From NCBI GenBank assembly GCA_036374135.1, contig DASUUK010000074.1, positions 124,001-188,000 of the forward strand: DNA of 64,000 nucleotides, given 5' to 3'. This DNA comes from Euzebyales bacterium (GTDB taxonomy: Bacteria; Actinomycetota; Nitriliruptoria; Euzebyales; JAHELV01). The position numbers were made by a program, and so were the translations under genes. The notes beneath the pieces are model-generated. The model saw nothing but the letters and a program-made list of their open reading frames with translations. It searched no databases and was not told where the DNA came from. This document shows positions 19,656 through 37,644 of this stretch, in pieces (positions within the stretch are counted from its first letter, which is position 1; each line of letters begins with the position of its first letter).

Positions 19656-19985
19656 TCACGTCGCGTGCGGGTCGTAGCGTGGCGGCTCGTCGGCCTCGAA
19701 ATCGTCCGTCGCACGCGACCGCCGGCTGCGGTCGTGGACCGATCGCGCGTCGATGCGGGATCGGGCGCGCAGGTCGTCACGCTCACGCCGCAGGTCGCTG
19801 CTGATCGACCGCAACTCGTCGAGCTCCACCTCGTCACGCAACGTGCTGAAGGTCGCGCTCGCCTCGTGTTTGATCTGCCCGACGACGCGGCCGACGGTGC
19901 GGGCGATCTGCGGCAGCCGCTCGGGCCCGAAGATCAGGAGCGCGAGCACGGCCAGCATCATCAGCTCCATGAACCCGACGTCCAC
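19656..19985 (-). CDS. tatB: Sec-independent translocase protein TatB
   Basis: A 109-residue single-pass component of the twin-arginine translocase. The N-terminal helix (about 5-20) is followed by the FGPERLPQIARTVG hinge and amphipathic helix, then a charged tail. A TatA/TatB distinction from sequence alone is soft, but the Glu in the helix (FMELMM), the length and the position between htrA and pap2 match actinobacterial TatB (next to htrA in mycobacteria). The start is GTG at 19985. No tatC lies in the window. Confidence 0.88.
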   Translation of the reverse strand: MDVGFMELMMLAVLALLIFGPERLPQIARTVGRVVGQIKHEASATFSTLRDEVELDELRSISSDLRRERDDLRARSRIDARSVHDRSRRSRATDDFEADEPPRYDPHAT

Positions 19986-20057
19986 GTCTGCTCCTCGTGT
20001 GCCGATGCTGTGGACAGTGTGCGTGCGACACCCGCGGCGACACCCACGACGCCGATG

Positions 20058-21260
20058 CTACTGCGGATCCGTCGTCGTGCGCTCGACCAGCACCACCTCG
20101 ACGCGTCGGCGCTCGCGGCTGCGGACGTAGGCGATGGTCACGCGGTCACCGACGTCGCGGTCACGGATGGCGATCGACAGCTCCTCCATCGACGCGATCG
20201 CCCGGTCGTCGACGCCGACGATCACGTCGTCGGGCGCCAGGCCGGCGCGCGCGGCAGGCGTGCCCGGGGTCACCTCGTGGATCCACGCACCGGCGCCGAC
20301 CCCGAGCCGCTCGGCGGCCTGTCCGCCGACGGGTCCACCGCTGACGCCGAGCAGTGGGTGACGGACACGTCCCGTGGCGATCAGCTCGTCGGCGACGTCG
20401 ACGACCGTGTCGACCGGTATGGCGAACCCGACCCCTGCGTTGGCGGCCTGACCCGACGTCAGGATCGCACTGTTGACGCCCATCAGGTGCCCGGACCGGT
20501 CGACGAGCGCGCCGCCGGAGTTGCCCGGGTTGATCGGGGCGTCGGTCTGCAGTACCTCGGGCAGGTACACCCCGTCACCGCCGCCCTCGGGGCCCGCGTG
20601 GATGCCGCGGCCGAGCGCGCTGACGACGCCGACCGTCACCGTGGCGTCGAGACCGAACGGACTGCCGACGGCGATCGCGAGGTCGCCGACGCGCGGCTTG
20701 GGGGACCCGCCGAGCACGATCGGCGTCAGATCGTCACGGTCGACGCGGATCACCGCGAGGTCGTTGAGCGGATCGGTGCCCACGATCTCGGCGGCCATCG
20801 AACGGCCGTCGGCGAACACGACCTCGATGCCACCGGGCGCCTCGACCACGTGGTTGTTGGTCACGATCAGACCGTCCGAGCGGTACACGACGCCCGAACC
20901 GTTGCCGGCGCCCTCGAACCGGTCCGTCATCGCCTGGTTGATGCGCACGACGGACGGCAGCACGGCGGCCGCGACGCGCGCCACCGTGCCCTGCGCCATC
21001 TCGTCGGTGGGTGCCCGCTGCGCCGGCTCGTCGGACAGGCCCGCGACGACGGGTGTCGGCGCCGGTTCAGGCGCCAGCCTCCTGTCCGCGGCGATGGCCA
21101 CGACGCCGCCGGCCAGACCGGCGATCACGACCGTCGACACCAGGCGCCGGCCCCCGCGGCTGCGGCGGCGGACGGTCGGCACACGCGGGAACACAGGCGG
21201 CCGGGCCGCGGCGACGCCGGACGTGGCGCCGGTGTCGGCGCCGTGGTCGGTCCGCGTCAT
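20058..21260 (-). CDS. htrA: HtrA/DegP-like serine protease with PDZ domain
   Basis: A 400-residue membrane-anchored protease. A short cytoplasmic N-terminus is followed by a membrane helix (about 42-58, LVSTVVIAGLAGGVVAIAA), an extracytoplasmic linker, and the trypsin-like domain with catalytic His in VTNNHVVE, Asp in DPLNDLAVI and Ser in PINPGNSGGAL. One PDZ domain occupies the C-terminus (VTPGTPAARAGLAPDDVIVG). This architecture matches mycobacterial HtrA/PepD, which act on misfolded envelope proteins. tatB and pap2 follow on the same strand. The start MTRTDHG gives a normal cytoplasmic leader. In mycobacteria sigE-rseA sits next to htrA; here only 232 bases separate htrA from the divergent methyltransferase, so those genes are absent at this place. 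Confidence 0.94.
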   Translation of the reverse strand: MTRTDHGADTGATSGVAAARPPVFPRVPTVRRRSRGGRRLVSTVVIAGLAGGVVAIAADRRLAPEPAPTPVVAGLSDEPAQRAPTDEMAQGTVARVAAAVLPSVVRINQAMTDRFEGAGNGSGVVYRSDGLIVTNNHVVEAPGGIEVVFADGRSMAAEIVGTDPLNDLAVIRVDRDDLTPIVLGGSPKPRVGDLAIAVGSPFGLDATVTVGVVSALGRGIHAGPEGGGDGVYLPEVLQTDAPINPGNSGGALVDRSGHLMGVNSAILTSGQAANAGVGFAIPVDTVVDVADELIATGRVRHPLLGVSGGPVGGQAAERLGVGAGAWIHEVTPGTPAARAGLAPDDVIVGVDDRAIASMEELSIAIRDRDVGDRVTIAYVRSRERRRVEVVLVERTTTDPQ

Positions 21261-21492
21261 CGTCTGGCTCCCGGGCCGGCACAGCCGCGTGCCGGCGGTC
21301 GTGGCTCCTGGATGGGTCGTCCATCCCAGCGTCGTGCGCCGGGACCGAGCGTGCCACATCCACGCGCTGCCGCGCACGGGCAGCGTCGGCCGGGGAGGGG
21401 ATCGGCTGCGGGCACGGGCGCCGGCGGTCGTTCGTTCTGCGGCTGCCGGGAGATACGCTCACGGGGCAGCGGTCTGACGCTCGGAGACCCCC

Positions 21493-22110
21493 GTGGGCAC
21501 CACAACAGCGACGGCCATCGACATCGACGCGTCCGCACCGCCGGAGGACGACGCGTTGCGCTCCGCGCGCGCACTCAGCGAGGGCGCCGGCATCGCACCT
21601 GTCACGCACCTGGGTGGCGCATGGCTGCGCTGGTTCGCGGGCATGCGCCCGGCGCGCGACGTCGTGGAGCTCGGCACCGGCGTCGGCTACAGCGCGTTGT
21701 GGCTGCTGGCGGGCATGCATCCGCGCGGCATGCTGACCACGATCGAGCCGGACGCCGACCTGCAGGCCAGCGCGCAGCGCGTCCTGGGTCGCGCCGGCCA
21801 CGGCCAGCGGGTGCGCAGCATCCTCGGCTCGGCGCTGACGGTGCTGCCGCGGCTCGCCGACGACGCCTACGACCTGGTCTTCATCGACGCGGTGCCCGAC
21901 GAGTATCCCGACTACCTCCCGCACGCGACGCGGCTGCTCCGGCCCGGCGGGCTGCTGATCGCCGACCGCGTGCTGGACGGCGTCGGGGCCGATGACGGCG
22001 GGGGCGTGCGCACGTTCGCCGACCTGGTCCGCGACGACCCGGCGCTGGACGGTCAGCTGCTGCCCGTCGGCGACGGGATGCTGGTGGCGGCCAGGACCGC
22101 GCCGGCCTGA
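21493..22110 (+). CDS. O-methyltransferase (class I, COMT-like)
   Basis: A 205-residue SAM-dependent O-methyltransferase. Motif I is VVELGTGVGYSALWL, then LTTIEPDADLQASA, GSALTVLPRL and YDLVFIDAVPDEYPDYL, followed by LLRPGGLLIADRVL; this is the small catechol/caffeoyl-CoA type family that includes mycobacterial Rv1220c. The N-terminal 20 residues are low-complexity. GTG start at 21493; a possible TACGCT -10 box lies at 21454. It is divergent from htrA, the same neighbour relationship as in mycobacteria apart from the missing sigE-rseA. Substrate unknown. Confidence 0.9.
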   Translation: MGTTTATAIDIDASAPPEDDALRSARALSEGAGIAPVTHLGGAWLRWFAGMRPARDVVELGTGVGYSALWLLAGMHPRGMLTTIEPDADLQASAQRVLGRAGHGQRVRSILGSALTVLPRLADDAYDLVFIDAVPDEYPDYLPHATRLLRPGGLLIADRVLDGVGADDGGGVRTFADLVRDDPALDGQLLPVGDGMLVAARTAPA

Positions 22111-22119
22111 GCCGCGACC

Positions 22120-22142
22120 CCGGCGCCCCGCGCGGGCGCCGG
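22120..22142. terminator. GC-rich hairpin between convergent genes
   Basis: CCGGCGCCC (22120-22128) and GGGCGCCGG (22134-22142) form a perfect 9-bp stem with a five-base loop, ten bases after the methyltransferase stop and ten before the stop of the convergent membrane-protein gene. Likely bidirectional termination. Confidence 0.7.
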
Positions 22143-22151
22143 TCGCCGCCG

Positions 22152-22925
22152 TCAGCCGAAGAAGCCAACCTTGCTCGACAGCTCGGCGCTGAAGGCCATG
22201 ATGACGGCCAGGTAGAACATGCCGGTCGCGGCCTGGATCGAGCGTCCCCCCTCCTGCGCGAGCTTCCAGACGAAGCCGGCGATCAGCGCGCAGATCGCGA
22301 CGAGTCCCGCGACGAGCAGGAGCGAGAACCCGGGTACGGCCAGGAACGGCGAGAAGCCGGTCGCCACAGGGGTGGGATGCTGCGCCGACAGCACCGCGCC
22401 GACGATGGCCGCGCCGACGCCGCCGGCGTACAGCATCGCGCTGCGCACCATGTGGCTGTTGGACAGACGGCGCTCGACGAGGTACCAGTGGCCGAGCAGC
22501 AGTCCGTACAGGGCCGAGCCCAGGAAGAACGCTCCTGCGGCCAGTTCGACGCCGGCCAGCACGACGCCCGTGCCCCGCGCCAGCGCGACGGTGCCCAGCG
22601 CCACGACGCCCACGGCCGCCGCACCCAGGCCGATGACGCGCTCGACTGCGAGGCGCGCGAGCACGGCCAACTGCCACAGCGTGAGCACGCCCGCGAACAC
22701 GCCGAGCGCCGTCACCATGCGCGCCTGCGCCGCGGACGGCGTTGCACCGACGGCGGCACGCGCCGTCGCCCATGCGCCCCAGGCGCACAGCGCGAGGATC
22801 ACACCGGACAGCACGAGGAAGCCGCGGCGGACCTTGCCGTGCACCCCACTGGTCAGGGTCACCACGGTGCCGCCGACAGCCGTCTCGGCCAGCAGCACCG
22901 CCATGACGGCGAGGGGCCCGCTCAT
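22152..22925 (-). CDS. Eight-helix membrane protein of unknown function
   Basis: A 257-residue protein with about eight hydrophobic helices and short loops; I do not recognise the family. Notable polar residues inside or near helices are the His in LLLGHWYLVERRLS (helix 5) and a His after helix 6 (SAQHPTP), which could bind a cofactor or ion, but this is only suggestive. The N-terminus (MSGPLAVMAVLLAETAVGG) could act as the first helix. The ATG at 22925 is preferred because the longer open frame upstream is basic and would overlap the divergent thioesterase. It shares a terminator hairpin with the methyltransferase gene. Confidence 0.75.
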   Translation of the reverse strand: MSGPLAVMAVLLAETAVGGTVVTLTSGVHGKVRRGFLVLSGVILALCAWGAWATARAAVGATPSAAQARMVTALGVFAGVLTLWQLAVLARLAVERVIGLGAAAVGVVALGTVALARGTGVVLAGVELAAGAFFLGSALYGLLLGHWYLVERRLSNSHMVRSAMLYAGGVGAAIVGAVLSAQHPTPVATGFSPFLAVPGFSLLLVAGLVAICALIAGFVWKLAQEGGRSIQAATGMFYLAVIMAFSAELSSKVGFFG

Positions 22926-23021
22926 GACGCCCCGCCCGCAGGGAGAGGATGCGTCAGCGCCGTGCGCGGGTATACCTGCGTTCGTACCAGACCAGCCCGT
23001 GACCGACCGACGGAGACCGTC

Positions 23022-23426
23022 GTGGTGGTTGAGCTCCCCGATGCGTGCGTGCCAGGCCGTCGCGCGAGCGTCGACCTCCGCGTGGCGCAGGACGACACCG
23101 CCGCGGCACTCGGCTCGGGCGACGTCGACGTGCTCGGCACGCCGCGGGTCCTGGCGATCGCGGAAGAGGCGTCCCGCCGCGCACTGGGAGACTGCCTCGG
23201 CCCTGAGCTGACGACGGTCGGCTCCTGGGTGGAGATCGAGCACAAGGCACCGAGCCACGTCGGTGACGACGTGCGGGCCGACGCCGTCCTGCTGGGCGTG
23301 CACGGCCGGAGGCTGGAGTTCTCGGTCACGGTCACCTCGGGAGACACGGAGGTCGCCCACATCCGGCACCGGCGCAAGATCGTGGAGCGGGCGAAGTTCG
23401 GCCAGGCCGGTCGCGCCACACCCTAG
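23022..23426 (+). CDS. FlK-like hot-dog thioesterase
   Basis: A 134-residue hot-dog fold thioesterase related to fluoroacetyl-CoA thioesterase FlK. Thr40, Glu48 and His74 sit with exactly the spacing of the FlK catalytic set (Thr42, Glu50, His76), in TPRVLAIAEEAS and VEIEHKAPSHVG. The closing GRRLEFSVTVTSGDTEVAHI segment also matches the family. Whether fluoroacetyl-CoA or an ordinary short acyl-CoA is the substrate cannot be told; most relatives are of unknown specificity. The GTG start has GGAG six bases upstream. It is divergent from the eight-helix protein gene. Confidence 0.8.
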   Translation: MVVELPDACVPGRRASVDLRVAQDDTAAALGSGDVDVLGTPRVLAIAEEASRRALGDCLGPELTTVGSWVEIEHKAPSHVGDDVRADAVLLGVHGRRLEFSVTVTSGDTEVAHIRHRRKIVERAKFGQAGRATP

Positions 23427-23480
23427 TCGCACGACAGGACCCGGGCGGCGCTGCCGACGCTCCGGATCGTCCACCAACGA

Positions 23481-24992
23481 TCATGACAGGGCCTCGAGCC
23501 ACGCCACGAGGGTCCGCACACCGAAGCCGGTGGCACCCTTGGGCACCAGCGGGCCGTCGCCGCTGTCGGAGAACGCCGGTCCGGCGATGTCGAGGTGGGC
23601 CCACGGCACGTCCCCGACGAACTCCGACAGGAACAGGCCGGCGACGATGCTCTGGGCCTCGCGCGGCTTGCCGATGTTGCGCAGGTCGGCCACCTCGCTG
23701 CGGAGCTGCTCACGGTAGTCCGCCGGGAGCGGGAGCCGCCACAACCGCTCACCCGCCCGGCCCGCGGCGGCCTCCAACGCGTCGAGCAGGTCGTCGTCGG
23801 AGCCCATCAGCGCGGCGATGCGGTTGCCGAGCGCCACGATCTGACCGCCGGTCAGCGTGGCGAGATCGACCATCGCGTCCGGCTCGAGCTCGACGCCGTA
23901 GGCCAGCGCGTCCGCGAGCACCAACCGACCCTCGGCGTCGGTGTTCATGACCTCGACCGTCGTGCCGTTGCGGTGGGTCAGCACGTCGGACACCCGCGTC
24001 GCATCGCCGCCCGGCATGTTCTCGGCGAGTGCCAGCAGTCCGGTGACCCGAGGCGCGACCCCCAGCCGTGCCGCGGCCAGCACGGTCCCCACGACGGCCG
24101 CGGCACCGCTCATGTCGCTCTTCATGGTCGACATCGACGCCGACGGCTTGAGGGACAGTCCGCCGCTGTCGAACGTGATGCCCTTCCCGACGAGGACGAC
24201 GTGCACGCCATCACCGTCATCCGCCGTCCCGGCGTAGGTGAGCTCGACCAGCCGTGGTTCGGTCGACGATCCGCGTCCGACGCCGATCAGGCCGCCGAAG
24301 CCGCCCTGCTCGAGCTCGTCGGCCGCGAGCACGCGGGAGGTGACGGGTGTGTCGGCGGTGAGCGACACGACCCTGTCCGCCAGATCCGGTGGCCGTTTGA
24401 ACGCGGGCGGCGTGTTGATCAGGTCGCGGGCGATGCTGGTCGTATCGACGATCACCCTGGCGAGGCGCACGCCGCGTTCGACCGCGTCGGGGTCGACGCC
24501 CGCACCCGGCACGACGACGATGCCGTCCAGGCGCACCGCGTCGTGGTTCTTGGTCCGGTAGGTCGTGTAGGCGTAGGCGCCGAGACCCGCACCTTCGGCG
24601 ACGGCGCGAGCCGCGGTGGTCGCGTCGAGCTGCCCGCCCACGTCACCGGGCACGATCACGGCCAGGGTGGCGTCGCGGGTCGCCTGCCTGGCCGCGGCGG
24701 CGGCGCCGCGACGCAGCGCATCGGCGCCGACCTCGGCCCGGTCGCCCACGCCCACCGCCAGCACGAGGGCCGTGGTGTCGTCGACCTGCACCGGGACGCG
24801 GCCGACCTCGTCGACGGCACCGGTGAGGTGCAACGCGTCGAGCGCGGCGGCGATGTCCACGCCCGCCGCTTCCGCGAGGGCGGTCAGATCGCGTCCGATG
24901 ACCGGCTGTTCGTCCTCATCCTGCGCGACGAAGCAGGCGACGACCGACGCCCCGGCGTCGGTCGTGGTCGGGGCGGTCCGGATGTCGGTCAT
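23481..24992 (-). CDS. pepA: Leucyl aminopeptidase (M17, PepA)
   Basis: A 503-residue cytosolic metallo-aminopeptidase that removes N-terminal residues from peptides; M17 enzymes are hexamers with two metal ions. The C-terminal catalytic domain has the metal- and substrate-binding segments VGKGITFDSGGLSLKP, SDMSGAAAV and the family signature NTDAEGRLVLADALAY, then DLATLTGGQIVALG. The N-terminal 170 residues form the macro-like domain and are more variable. Length is normal and the ATG at 24992 is the first in frame. It stands alone, with its end 54 bases from the convergent thioesterase. Confidence 0.95.
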   Translation of the reverse strand: MTDIRTAPTTTDAGASVVACFVAQDEDEQPVIGRDLTALAEAAGVDIAAALDALHLTGAVDEVGRVPVQVDDTTALVLAVGVGDRAEVGADALRRGAAAAARQATRDATLAVIVPGDVGGQLDATTAARAVAEGAGLGAYAYTTYRTKNHDAVRLDGIVVVPGAGVDPDAVERGVRLARVIVDTTSIARDLINTPPAFKRPPDLADRVVSLTADTPVTSRVLAADELEQGGFGGLIGVGRGSSTEPRLVELTYAGTADDGDGVHVVLVGKGITFDSGGLSLKPSASMSTMKSDMSGAAAVVGTVLAAARLGVAPRVTGLLALAENMPGGDATRVSDVLTHRNGTTVEVMNTDAEGRLVLADALAYGVELEPDAMVDLATLTGGQIVALGNRIAALMGSDDDLLDALEAAAGRAGERLWRLPLPADYREQLRSEVADLRNIGKPREAQSIVAGLFLSEFVGDVPWAHLDIAGPAFSDSGDGPLVPKGATGFGVRTLVAWLEALS

Positions 24993-25178
24993 CGTTCTCT
25001 GCTTTCGGCGGGCCGGCCGACGGCGCCCCGCACGACGTCGTCGGCGTGATCCGGGCGAGTCTAGAGCCGCTGTCGCACCCCCGCGCCGGCGCGACCTGCC
25101 CGCGGGGACCCGTCACACGCCCGTTCCGCCGCCCCGGCCCACGCGCTTCCCGGCTGAGACCCGGGAGGCGAGGTCGCC

Positions 25179-34756: not shown

Positions 34757-34899
34757 CGTCCTGTCCCCGCCGTCACGCACGGATCGCAGCGAAGAATTCA
34801 TCAGCATTGGGGTTTTCGTCAGCGCGGACAATGTCACGCTGGCGTCGACGGCGCACGGATCGTGCGCGGACATCGTTCGAGGGGCGGATCGCGTTGACC

Positions 34900-37644
34900 A
34901 TGCAGTGGCAGCGGGTGCGGAAGATCGGCCACGCTCTGGGCGTGCTGATCGCACTCGCGCTGCTGGCGGTGGTCGCGGTGGCCCCCGCGGCCGCCCAGGT
35001 CACATCCGACGTCGACCCGCTGGACCGGTTCGACGTGCTCGGCGTCCGCACGGGCGACCGTGCCGAGATCCTGTTCGCCGCACCGCCGGGCACGGCCACG
35101 CAGCAACTCACCGGCGACGACGTCGCCGTGCAGGTCGACGGCACGGAGGGCGCCGCCCGGCTGCAGCGCCTGCCGATCGATGAGCTCCATGTCGCGGTCG
35201 TCGTCGACACCACCGTCCCGATCGCCGATCTCCGGGCCATCCAGGGAGCGGTCGTCCAGCTTGCACTCGCGCTGCCCCAGGGCGCGACCATGCGGATCGT
35301 GGATGCCACAGGCGCCGTCGGGGCGCCGGCACCCGTGCCCGGGCCGGCCATCGCACAGGTCCGCCAGCTGACGGCCGGGACGGGCGACGACCTCCAGCGC
35401 GGCGTGGTGCAGGCGAAGGCCGGGCTGGACACCTCGAACGCTGACCGGGGGGTCCTGGTCGTGATCGGGCGGGACCTCGGCGAACGACTGCGGCCCATCG
35501 GTGGCCAGGGGTTCCGTCGCCTGCACGAGTTGATCGACGTCGGCGGTCCGGACGCCGACACCACCCTGCTGGGTCCACGGGCGGCCGGGAACGTCAGGAC
35601 CGTGGACGGCCCGGCCGCGGTCCTCGCGGCGACCGACCGCGTGTCGCACAACGTCGGCAACCTGTACCGCGCCACGGTCGACGTGCCGGCCGACGGCGCG
35701 GAGACTGTGACCCTGCGGGTGGCCGCCGCCGGCGTTGACGGATCGTCGCGCACGCTCGCGCTGGATCCCGACAGCATCCGCCCGGTCGACGCGTCGGTGC
35801 CAGACGGCGCCGACCCGGACACGAGCGCGGCGGACGTCGAGGAGGCGGGGGGCGACACCGCACCCGACCGCGCACGAGCGTCACCGATCACGGGTGTCAC
35901 ACTGCGCGACATCGTGCTTCCGGTGCTGCTCGCAGGTGTCCTGCTCGTCGCACTCGCGGTCGTGTGGCTGTCGGCACGCGTGTGGCAACGCCGGCTGCGG
36001 CCACGCTGGCGGGCGGCCGCCGCCAGGCGCACGGCGGCGGCTGCCGCGGACGCGTCGTCGTGGCGCCGGCAACGGGGATACGTCGACGCCACCGGATACG
36101 AGCGGGCGACCGTCGGTCGGCCGGTTGGACGGCGCCACCGAGGAGGGCTCTCGGCCGACGCCGACGGCGCCCCGACCGTCACGAGCTCAGCGACCGTCGG
36201 TCGGCGGGTTGGACGGCGCCACCGAGGAGGGCTCTCGGCCGACGCCGACGGCGCCCCGACCTCGCCCAGCGCCCCGACCGTCACGAGCTCAGCGACGGTC
36301 GGCGACGGCTCGGGGAATGGCGCCGCCACCGCCGGGACCGCCGCATCCAGGGACGCGACGGAGTCGTCGGACGGCGCGGCGGCCGTCACCGTCACCGGCG
36401 CCGCGACGCCCGACCGCACGGCGACGCCCGACCGCACGGCAGCCGGCACCACCGGCGAGCCTGTCCTCCGCAGGTCCGCGCCCCGGCAGTCCGGCACCAC
36501 GGCAGCCGGTGCCGCGGCGACCGCCGGACCTGCGCCAGCCACGACGACCACCACCCCCGGACCCGTCGCCGGGGACGCGGCAGGTGAGCGGACGCTTCGC
36601 AGGGACGACACAGCGCTCGACGACGCCTCCGGGTCGACGAGCGCCGGACCCGGGCCGCGTCCGCGCCGCCGGCGTGCCGCGGACGCGGGGCGGCCCATCG
36701 CCAAGCTGAGCCCGCAGACCCGCGAGGCGCTGGCGCACGCCCACCGCAGTCTGCGCCAGCTGGCGCTCGCGTCACGCGCGGCCGCCGACAGCGTGCCGGA
36801 CGACCTGTTCCGACTGACCGAGGCACGTGCCAGCGTCGCCCTCAGCCGCCAGGACATCGACCTGGACGAGGTGCTGCTGCGGACCCTGGCCGACGAGGAC
36901 GACGCCGACGTCGAGCTCGTCCGTCGCACCGCCGCCGCACTTTCGACCGGCTGGCAGCACACCGCCCACCGCTCGTCGGCGCCACCACCGATCATCGAGA
37001 TCAACGCCGTGCTGACCGGCGCCACCGCACCGGGACGGACGCCGCGTGGGCCCCGTCGGCCCGTCGCGCCCGTGCGCGCGCTCAACCCGCTGGTCGACAT
37101 CGGCCTGGAGCACGTCGTGCTCGCCCGGCACCCCGACCGGGACAGCGAACTGGTGGCACGGGCCGTGACCGCGACCGACATTATGCGTGCGGCCCGGCTG
37201 GCCCGACCCGCGCTGGCGATCAGTCCGTGGCTGCTCGACGAACGGGTCGGCTACCGCGCGGCGCTCGACGCGGACCTCAACGATTCCGACCAGCGCGACC
37301 AGTGGCTCCAGCTGCTGTGCGGCTGCCTCGCGCGCGCCGCGACCGGGTCCACGGCACAGCTGGAACGGCTCGATCGACTGCGGGAGCGGTACCGCGCCCG
37401 CGCCACCGACACGCGGATGCTGCCCCTGATCGACCTGCTGCTGGCCCACCCGATCATCGATGCGTCGTTCGTCAGGCGCCGGTTGTCGACGTCGGGGCGC
37501 ACCGCAAACCGACTGCTGACCGAAGCGGAACGCGCGGGATGGATCCGCCGCGACCACCGGCGGACGGGCACGTGGTGCGCGGAGCAGATCCTCTCGCTGT
37601 TCTCCACCGTCGACGTGCGGGCGCGCAGCTCACAGCCCGCCTGA
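34900..37644 (+). CDS. Membrane protein: VWA-like ectodomain, TM helix, Fic-shell/winged-helix C-terminus
   Basis: A 914-residue protein of unusual design. Residues 1-33 are a signal peptide ending AVAPAAAQ. Residues about 60-280 look like a von Willebrand A-type fold (ELHVAVVVDTTVPIADLRAI, then GVLVVIGRDLGERL), but the MIDAS position reads DTTVP, not DxSxS. One helix spans about 333-352 (VLLAGVLLVALAVVWLSA), placing the rest in the cytoplasm. A 250-residue low-complexity linker includes two 28-residue repeats. From about 603, LSPQTREALAHAHRSL and DDLFRLTEARASVALS resemble the N-terminal helices of Fic proteins, and ALAISPWLLDERVGYRAALD to the end (IDLLLAHPIID, SGRTANRLLTEAERAGWI) resembles the Fic C-terminal helices and winged helix. 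The catalytic HPFxxGNGR is absent. A TTG at 34894 is an alternative start. Confidence 0.75.
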   Translation: MQWQRVRKIGHALGVLIALALLAVVAVAPAAAQVTSDVDPLDRFDVLGVRTGDRAEILFAAPPGTATQQLTGDDVAVQVDGTEGAARLQRLPIDELHVAVVVDTTVPIADLRAIQGAVVQLALALPQGATMRIVDATGAVGAPAPVPGPAIAQVRQLTAGTGDDLQRGVVQAKAGLDTSNADRGVLVVIGRDLGERLRPIGGQGFRRLHELIDVGGPDADTTLLGPRAAGNVRTVDGPAAVLAATDRVSHNVGNLYRATVDVPADGAETVTLRVAAAGVDGSSRTLALDPDSIRPVDASVPDGADPDTSAADVEEAGGDTAPDRARASPITGVTLRDIVLPVLLAGVLLVALAVVWLSARVWQRRLRPRWRAAAARRTAAAAADASSWRRQRGYVDATGYERATVGRPVGRRHRGGLSADADGAPTVTSSATVGRRVGRRHRGGLSADADGAPTSPSAPTVTSSATVGDGSGNGAATAGTAASRDATESSDGAAAVTVTGAATPDRTATPDRTAAGTTGEPVLRRSAPRQSGTTAAGAAATAGPAPATTTTTPGPVAGDAAGERTLRRDDTALDDASGSTSAGPGPRPRRRRAADAGRPIAKLSPQTREALAHAHRSLRQLALASRAAADSVPDDLFRLTEARASVALSRQDIDLDEVLLRTLADEDDADVELVRRTAAALSTGWQHTAHRSSAPPPIIEINAVLTGATAPGRTPRGPRRPVAPVRALNPLVDIGLEHVVLARHPDRDSELVARAVTATDIMRAARLARPALAISPWLLDERVGYRAALDADLNDSDQRDQWLQLLCGCLARAATGSTAQLERLDRLRERYRARATDTRMLPLIDLLLAHPIIDASFVRRRLSTSGRTANRLLTEAERAGWIRRDHRRTGTWCAEQILSLFSTVDVRARSSQPA
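36106..36270 (+). repeat. 84-bp in-frame direct repeat in linker
   Basis: The unit starting at 36106 recurs at 36190. It encodes 28 residues, ATVGRxVGRRHRGGLSADAD and on to APTVTSS; the second copy has a six-residue insertion near its end. DNA identity is nearly complete, indicating a recent duplication in the linker of the VWA/Fic-like protein. Confidence 0.88.

Follow-up and report, generated by a model that had tools for sequence, protein, structure and literature searches.

A predicted transmembrane protein joining a VWA-like ectodomain without its metal site to a Fic-type module without its catalytic motif

What role might be played by a bacterial membrane protein in which two recognisable domains, one outside the cell and one inside, have each lost their active site? 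The question is raised by a gene at positions 34900-37644 (forward strand) of the 64,000-nucleotide stretch of Euzebyales bacterium DNA analysed here, hereafter the window. A single open reading frame encodes a protein of 914 residues, present in one copy in the draft genome (115 contigs). By Pfam, the gene is preceded by those for an NDH-2-like oxidoreductase and RsgA and followed by rmuC, in agreement with the original prediction that the gene lies between rsgA and rmuC. These two neighbours offer no functional hint.

The protein opens with a signal peptide (residues 1-33; 34900-34998, like all features below on the forward strand), whose hydrophobic segment covers residues 12-30. It is followed by an extracytoplasmic region (residues 35-298; 35002-35793) composed of a small beta subdomain and then a VWA-like domain. 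The N-terminus has a counterpart in the orthologues described below, with weak conservation. A further hydrophobic segment, residues 338-356 (35911-35967), forms the predicted transmembrane helix, found likewise in proteins P0002 and P0003 and in a more distant protein from genome G021. A third, weak hydrophobic peak (residues 840-858) coincides with the winged-helix region and has no counterpart in the orthologues. The topology predicted purely from hydrophobicity is that of a type I membrane protein with a cytoplasmic C-terminus. Alignment with the orthologues delimits a low-complexity linker, residues 361-594 (35980-36681), containing about two copies of an 84-bp tandem repeat (36106-36282); since 84 is a multiple of three, the repeat keeps the reading frame. 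From the length of the product to the signal peptide, the single membrane helix and the repeat-expanded linker, the protein is built as had been predicted.

It had been recognised that ectodomain and C-terminus might belong to two genes joined by an error within the linker. Full-length orthologues are found in two congeneric Nitriliruptorales genomes, G002 (761 aa, 57% identical to the window protein) and G003 (708 aa, 52%). Each reads in one frame with the same domain order, which shows that the fusion is real and rules out an assembly chimera or split gene; in the window gene itself, third-position GC is highest in one and the same frame throughout. In a fourth genome, G001, the ectodomain and transmembrane helix are followed by the contig end. 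The rsgA and oxidoreductase genes lie upstream in all four genomes, and rmuC lies downstream in the window and G003, that side being off the contig in G002 and G001. The linker, 234 residues long in the window protein, is much shorter in the two other orthologues. Searching 397 genomes of the phylum for the C-terminal shell returned only the three orthologues among the best 5-9 candidates per genome; two further matches, to proteins with neither a Fic motif nor the layout of a Fic protein, were attributed to chance. A collection of genome contigs yielded one orthologue only, and the viral contigs and plasmids searched gave no match. Full-length comparisons are those of three sequences from one genus.

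The Fic relationship of the C-terminus is not apparent from whole-protein Pfam and NCBIfam scans, which give HTH_13 alone, and emerges through profiles or the PADLOC SoFic model. HTH_13 is matched in all three orthologues (E=8.8e-5 for the winged helix at residues 839-901) and Fic_N weakly in two of the three (E=0.001 in P0003), in both cases below the curated cut-off; the Pfam Fic domain gives no match at E<1 in the orthologues. When a profile built from the C-termini of the three orthologues is run against 66 genomes of the class, genuine Fic proteins are matched across the last half, with E-values down to 5e-19. Comparison using hhalign with 13 Fic proteins of the class, which themselves match the SoFic crystal structures 3eqx and 3zcn, yields E=5.6e-21 over 297 columns, the score of 152 comparing with a maximum of 22.5 in 20 column-shuffled controls. 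The N-terminal half taken alone, which includes the Fic_N-like segment (residues 602-684; 36703-36951), still gives E=4.3e-5 (39 against a control maximum of 20.4). The PADLOC model matches at E=1.1e-17 over residues 752-902, covering the Fic C-terminal helices (residues 758-838; 37171-37413) and the HTH_13-like winged helix (residues 839-901; 37414-37602). Profile comparison thus bears out the predicted Fic-like C-terminus, its Fic_N side included, and establishes homology to SoFic-type Fic proteins along the whole length, winged helix and all. A direct search of PDB sequences with the C-terminal and ectodomain profiles returned nothing significant, and a structure model of the C-terminus, derived from an alignment of two sequences, had a pLDDT of 37 and no Foldseek match. 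Near a contig end in G003 (C55, loci L009 and L015), two Fic genes lie adjacent on opposite strands, one of SoFic type and the other bearing HPYADGNGR.

The last 300 residues can be aligned with these class II proteins (Fic_N, Fic, winged helix) over their entire length but, unlike them, the 914-residue protein adds a secreted VWA domain and a membrane helix and lacks the elements of catalysis. In the collapsed Fic core (residues 708-757; 37021-37170) the motif HPFxDGNGRxxR, of the general form HPFx[D/E]GN[G/K]RxxR, is absent, as had been noted for the window protein, and it is equally absent from both other orthologues, so that layout and motif loss are conserved together in all three. The aligned stretches read HPDRDSELVAR, RPGDDSDLVAR and RDGRDDQLVAR. 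The inhibitory helix motif [S/T]xxxE[G/N], which appears as ASSxIEGTQ in active relatives, is replaced by ASVALSxQ, and about 40 residues comprising the flap (TPGEFRxSQNWIG to FVPPP) are deleted. Catalytic motif, inhibitory SxxxEG and flap are gone together in all three orthologues and, in view of the family mechanism, AMPylation of the known kind would not be expected.

Catalysis through an unrelated site is another reading, for which AvrB of the Fido superfamily may be cited: it retains the Fic fold without the motif and binds ADP (PMC2686095). AvrB is, however, a secreted effector with other additions and without VWA domain, membrane helix or winged helix. With flap, motif, anion-binding loop and inhibitory helix residues all missing here, this is the least probable of the readings considered. 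A dead copy might instead act as an antagonist, binding and blocking an active Fic toxin of the same cell. G001 and G003 do encode active-looking SoFic-type proteins, but the profile finds no other such Fic protein in the window's genome or in G002, and we regard such a role as highly improbable.

Despite the loss of its catalytic motif, the Fic shell is under purifying selection. In the Fic_N half, dN is about 0.16-0.19 and dS about 0.7-0.8, as against a linker dN of 0.6-0.7, dS being high enough that the dN/dS ratios are rough. Orthologues are 71-91% identical over Fic_N and the following segment and 52-67% identical over the winged helix. Conservation in the shell is greatest at residues 685-707 (36952-37020; WQHTAxRxSAPPPxxEINAVLTG), which adjoin the deleted flap and are 83-91% identical between orthologues; the same segment in pairs of active Fic proteins of 56-72% overall identity is 35-65% identical. 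We infer that this segment forms a new binding face of the dead Fic core, and the pattern points to the remodelled face as a working surface. The suggestion that a dead Fic fold serves as a scaffold hence stands as regards the motif-less Fic homology, but the conserved face indicates that the word may understate the part played by the Fic module. It should be added that, with three full sequences from one genus, conserved segments could owe more to shared ancestry than to function.

The ectodomain presents a parallel case. A profile of the genus ectodomains finds a VWA_2 protein with an intact metal site at locus L041 (E=3.3e-4) and, once the G021 sequence is added, finds TadB-like proteins of VWA-TM-T2SSF organisation. 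An ectodomain model of moderate quality (pLDDT 55, pTM 0.55) retrieves VWA folds from the PDB with Foldseek, at a best E-value of 4.7e-5 and low TM-scores. At the MIDAS position, the DxSxS motif is represented by DTT(V/L) in the genus (DTTVP at residues 103-107, 35206-35220, in the window protein, where relatives read DTSGS). Both serines are missing, and the Thr and Asp positions of the site are not kept. The predicted VWA-like ectodomain without a full MIDAS is accordingly recovered by profile, structural and alignment comparisons, and by sequence it is related to the VWA domains of actinobacterial TadB-like proteins. It shares with these proteins the order of signal peptide, small beta domain, VWA domain and membrane helix, but their MIDAS is intact, and where they carry T2SSF the present protein has the Fic shell. 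Pfam scans of the 914-residue protein and its orthologues give no T2SSF match; a T2SSF gene inspected in the window's own genome is without a VWA domain. The L041 protein (positions 1414-2676; G061:C32) consists of a VWA domain with intact MIDAS and a membrane helix, with almost no cytoplasmic part; the tailed VWA proteins may have started from such a form.

A second kind of tail occurs in another family of the same order. The G021 protein (L040:607-2442; contig C39, reverse strand) resembles the window protein in having a signal peptide, a MIDAS-less ectodomain (DITQE at the MIDAS position), a membrane helix, a linker and a tail derived from a truncated DNA enzyme; it differs in that this tail is of Nei/Fpg type, an endonuclease VIII-type N-terminal domain matching residues 13-122 of E. 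coli endonuclease VIII at E=1e-6. It has neither the catalytic first residues nor the remainder of the enzyme, so that the H2TH and zinc-finger parts are missing too. A related ectodomain, with DTSRG at the MIDAS position, and membrane helix are encoded in G023 (L058:1492-3767; contig C16), where a similar tail lies in a different frame and matches the G021 tail at 4e-9 in a single comparison. Third-position GC in the G023 gene shifts between frames within the linker, making a frameshift or assembly slip likely, and G023 probably carries a second gene for a protein of this VWA-TM-Nei_N organisation. We found no earlier description of such proteins in the literature searched. In a tree, the genus, G021 and G023 ectodomains group together against the TadB-like proteins with support of 93/95, which falls short of being decisive, and the branches are long.

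The setting of the G021 gene is also different. Its neighbours are M17 peptidase, membrane-protein and DUF4397 genes, and rsgA, which immediately precedes the gene for the 914-residue protein, is here up to about 3 kb away. The G021 gene also adjoins homologues of genes that in the window are separated from rsgA by about 9-12 kb. No VWA-Nei gene was recognisable beside the M17 and membrane-protein genes at 13 loci in other genomes of the order. Window positions 19656-25112 and loci L080-L092 encode an M17 aminopeptidase, a multi-helix membrane protein without a Pfam match, an O-methyltransferase and a trypsin/PDZ protease, in an order kept across the order. The occurrence of a related ectodomain with a different truncated enzyme tail in another family is in keeping with a receptor whose tails are exchangeable. 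One receptor may have swapped its tail, or two receptors may have arisen in parallel. A wider proposal, that a small Nitriliruptorales family of VWA receptors lacking the metal site employs dead-enzyme cytoplasmic tails (pseudo-Fic or truncated Nei-type) as signalling or docking modules, is put forward as a possibility rather than a probability.

The original prediction went further, proposing that an external binding event is relayed to a DNA-binding winged helix. Such a membrane-tethered transcription regulator, in which binding outside would alter how the Fic shell dimerises, with the winged helix binding an operator, perhaps the element upstream of its own gene, seems possible though on balance doubtful, and ranks second among our readings. 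One-component, single-pass membrane regulators of the ToxR/CadC type offer a comparable (here predicted) topology of sensor outside and winged helix inside. Their winged helix is N-terminal; unlike theirs, that of the 914-residue protein is C-terminal, behind the Fic shell. The linker may well be long enough to reach DNA. Fic proteins of the same Fic plus winged-helix order bind DNA through the winged helix: CccR autorepresses its own promoter (PMC9755527) and CbFic2 dimerises on DNA (PMC10628234), but both are catalytically active and without VWA domain or membrane helix.

There is, moreover, a candidate site. Alignment of the four genomes upstream of the gene reveals a two-block element, GAA(A/T)TCAT..TT..GGGTT-N17/18-GTCACGCTGG (34794-34849), situated 50-60 bp before the start codon. 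Invariant columns number 34 in this alignment, whereas 100 shuffled sets average 9.7 and never exceed 20. The window's own genome contains a single copy of the core pattern (0.01 expected in the window; none for a reversed-pattern control), and within each of the four genomes the element is all but confined to this gene. It is likely to be a promoter and/or operator; we take its spacing to resemble that of an ECF-type promoter.

Other observations speak against a regulator. The winged helix is less conserved than the shell, its net charge being +5, +1 and -3 in the three orthologues (the negative value in G003), and the recognition helix, only 21-50% identical between orthologues, changes where the upstream element does not. 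By eye, the element contains no clear palindrome. As pairs of active Fic proteins at similar distance likewise have a less conserved winged helix, this variability is weak evidence against DNA binding. The proposed relay is thus left as a possibility against which variable charge and recognition helix speak weakly. An anchor to the membrane for the chromosome or a DNA-bound complex, without signalling, would make sense of the winged helix here and the glycosylase-derived tails of G021 and G023 as parts of DNA-contacting proteins, and of the neighbouring rmuC, which belongs to a DNA-recombination family. However, in Nei most DNA contacts are carried by the H2TH and zinc-finger parts, which the G021 tail lacks, the match ending near Nei residue 122; together with the negative winged helix in G003, this leaves an anchor very unlikely.

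The architecture, the homology, the loss of both active sites and the purifying selection are established. For the role of the protein, we rank first, as a tentative choice that falls somewhat short of an even chance, that of a transmembrane adaptor or receptor, its dead Fic module serving to bind a partner in the cytoplasm. Outside the cell, the VWA fold without its metal site would bind a protein or wall ligand. Inside, the SoFic-type module would engage its partner via the remodelled face (about residues 685-757), and the state of the ligand might be signalled as altered clustering or partner binding. The winged helix may dimerise, bind DNA, or both. As had been supposed, no described family with this VWA-TM-pseudo-Fic layout was found in the literature searched, nor was any description there of a conserved pseudo-AMPylase fused to a receptor. 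If the adaptor reading is true, this would be a bacterial instance of an enzyme fold retained for binding once catalysis had gone, here as a component of a transmembrane protein. The Nei-tailed relatives suggest that such recycling of enzymes may have happened twice on one receptor base.
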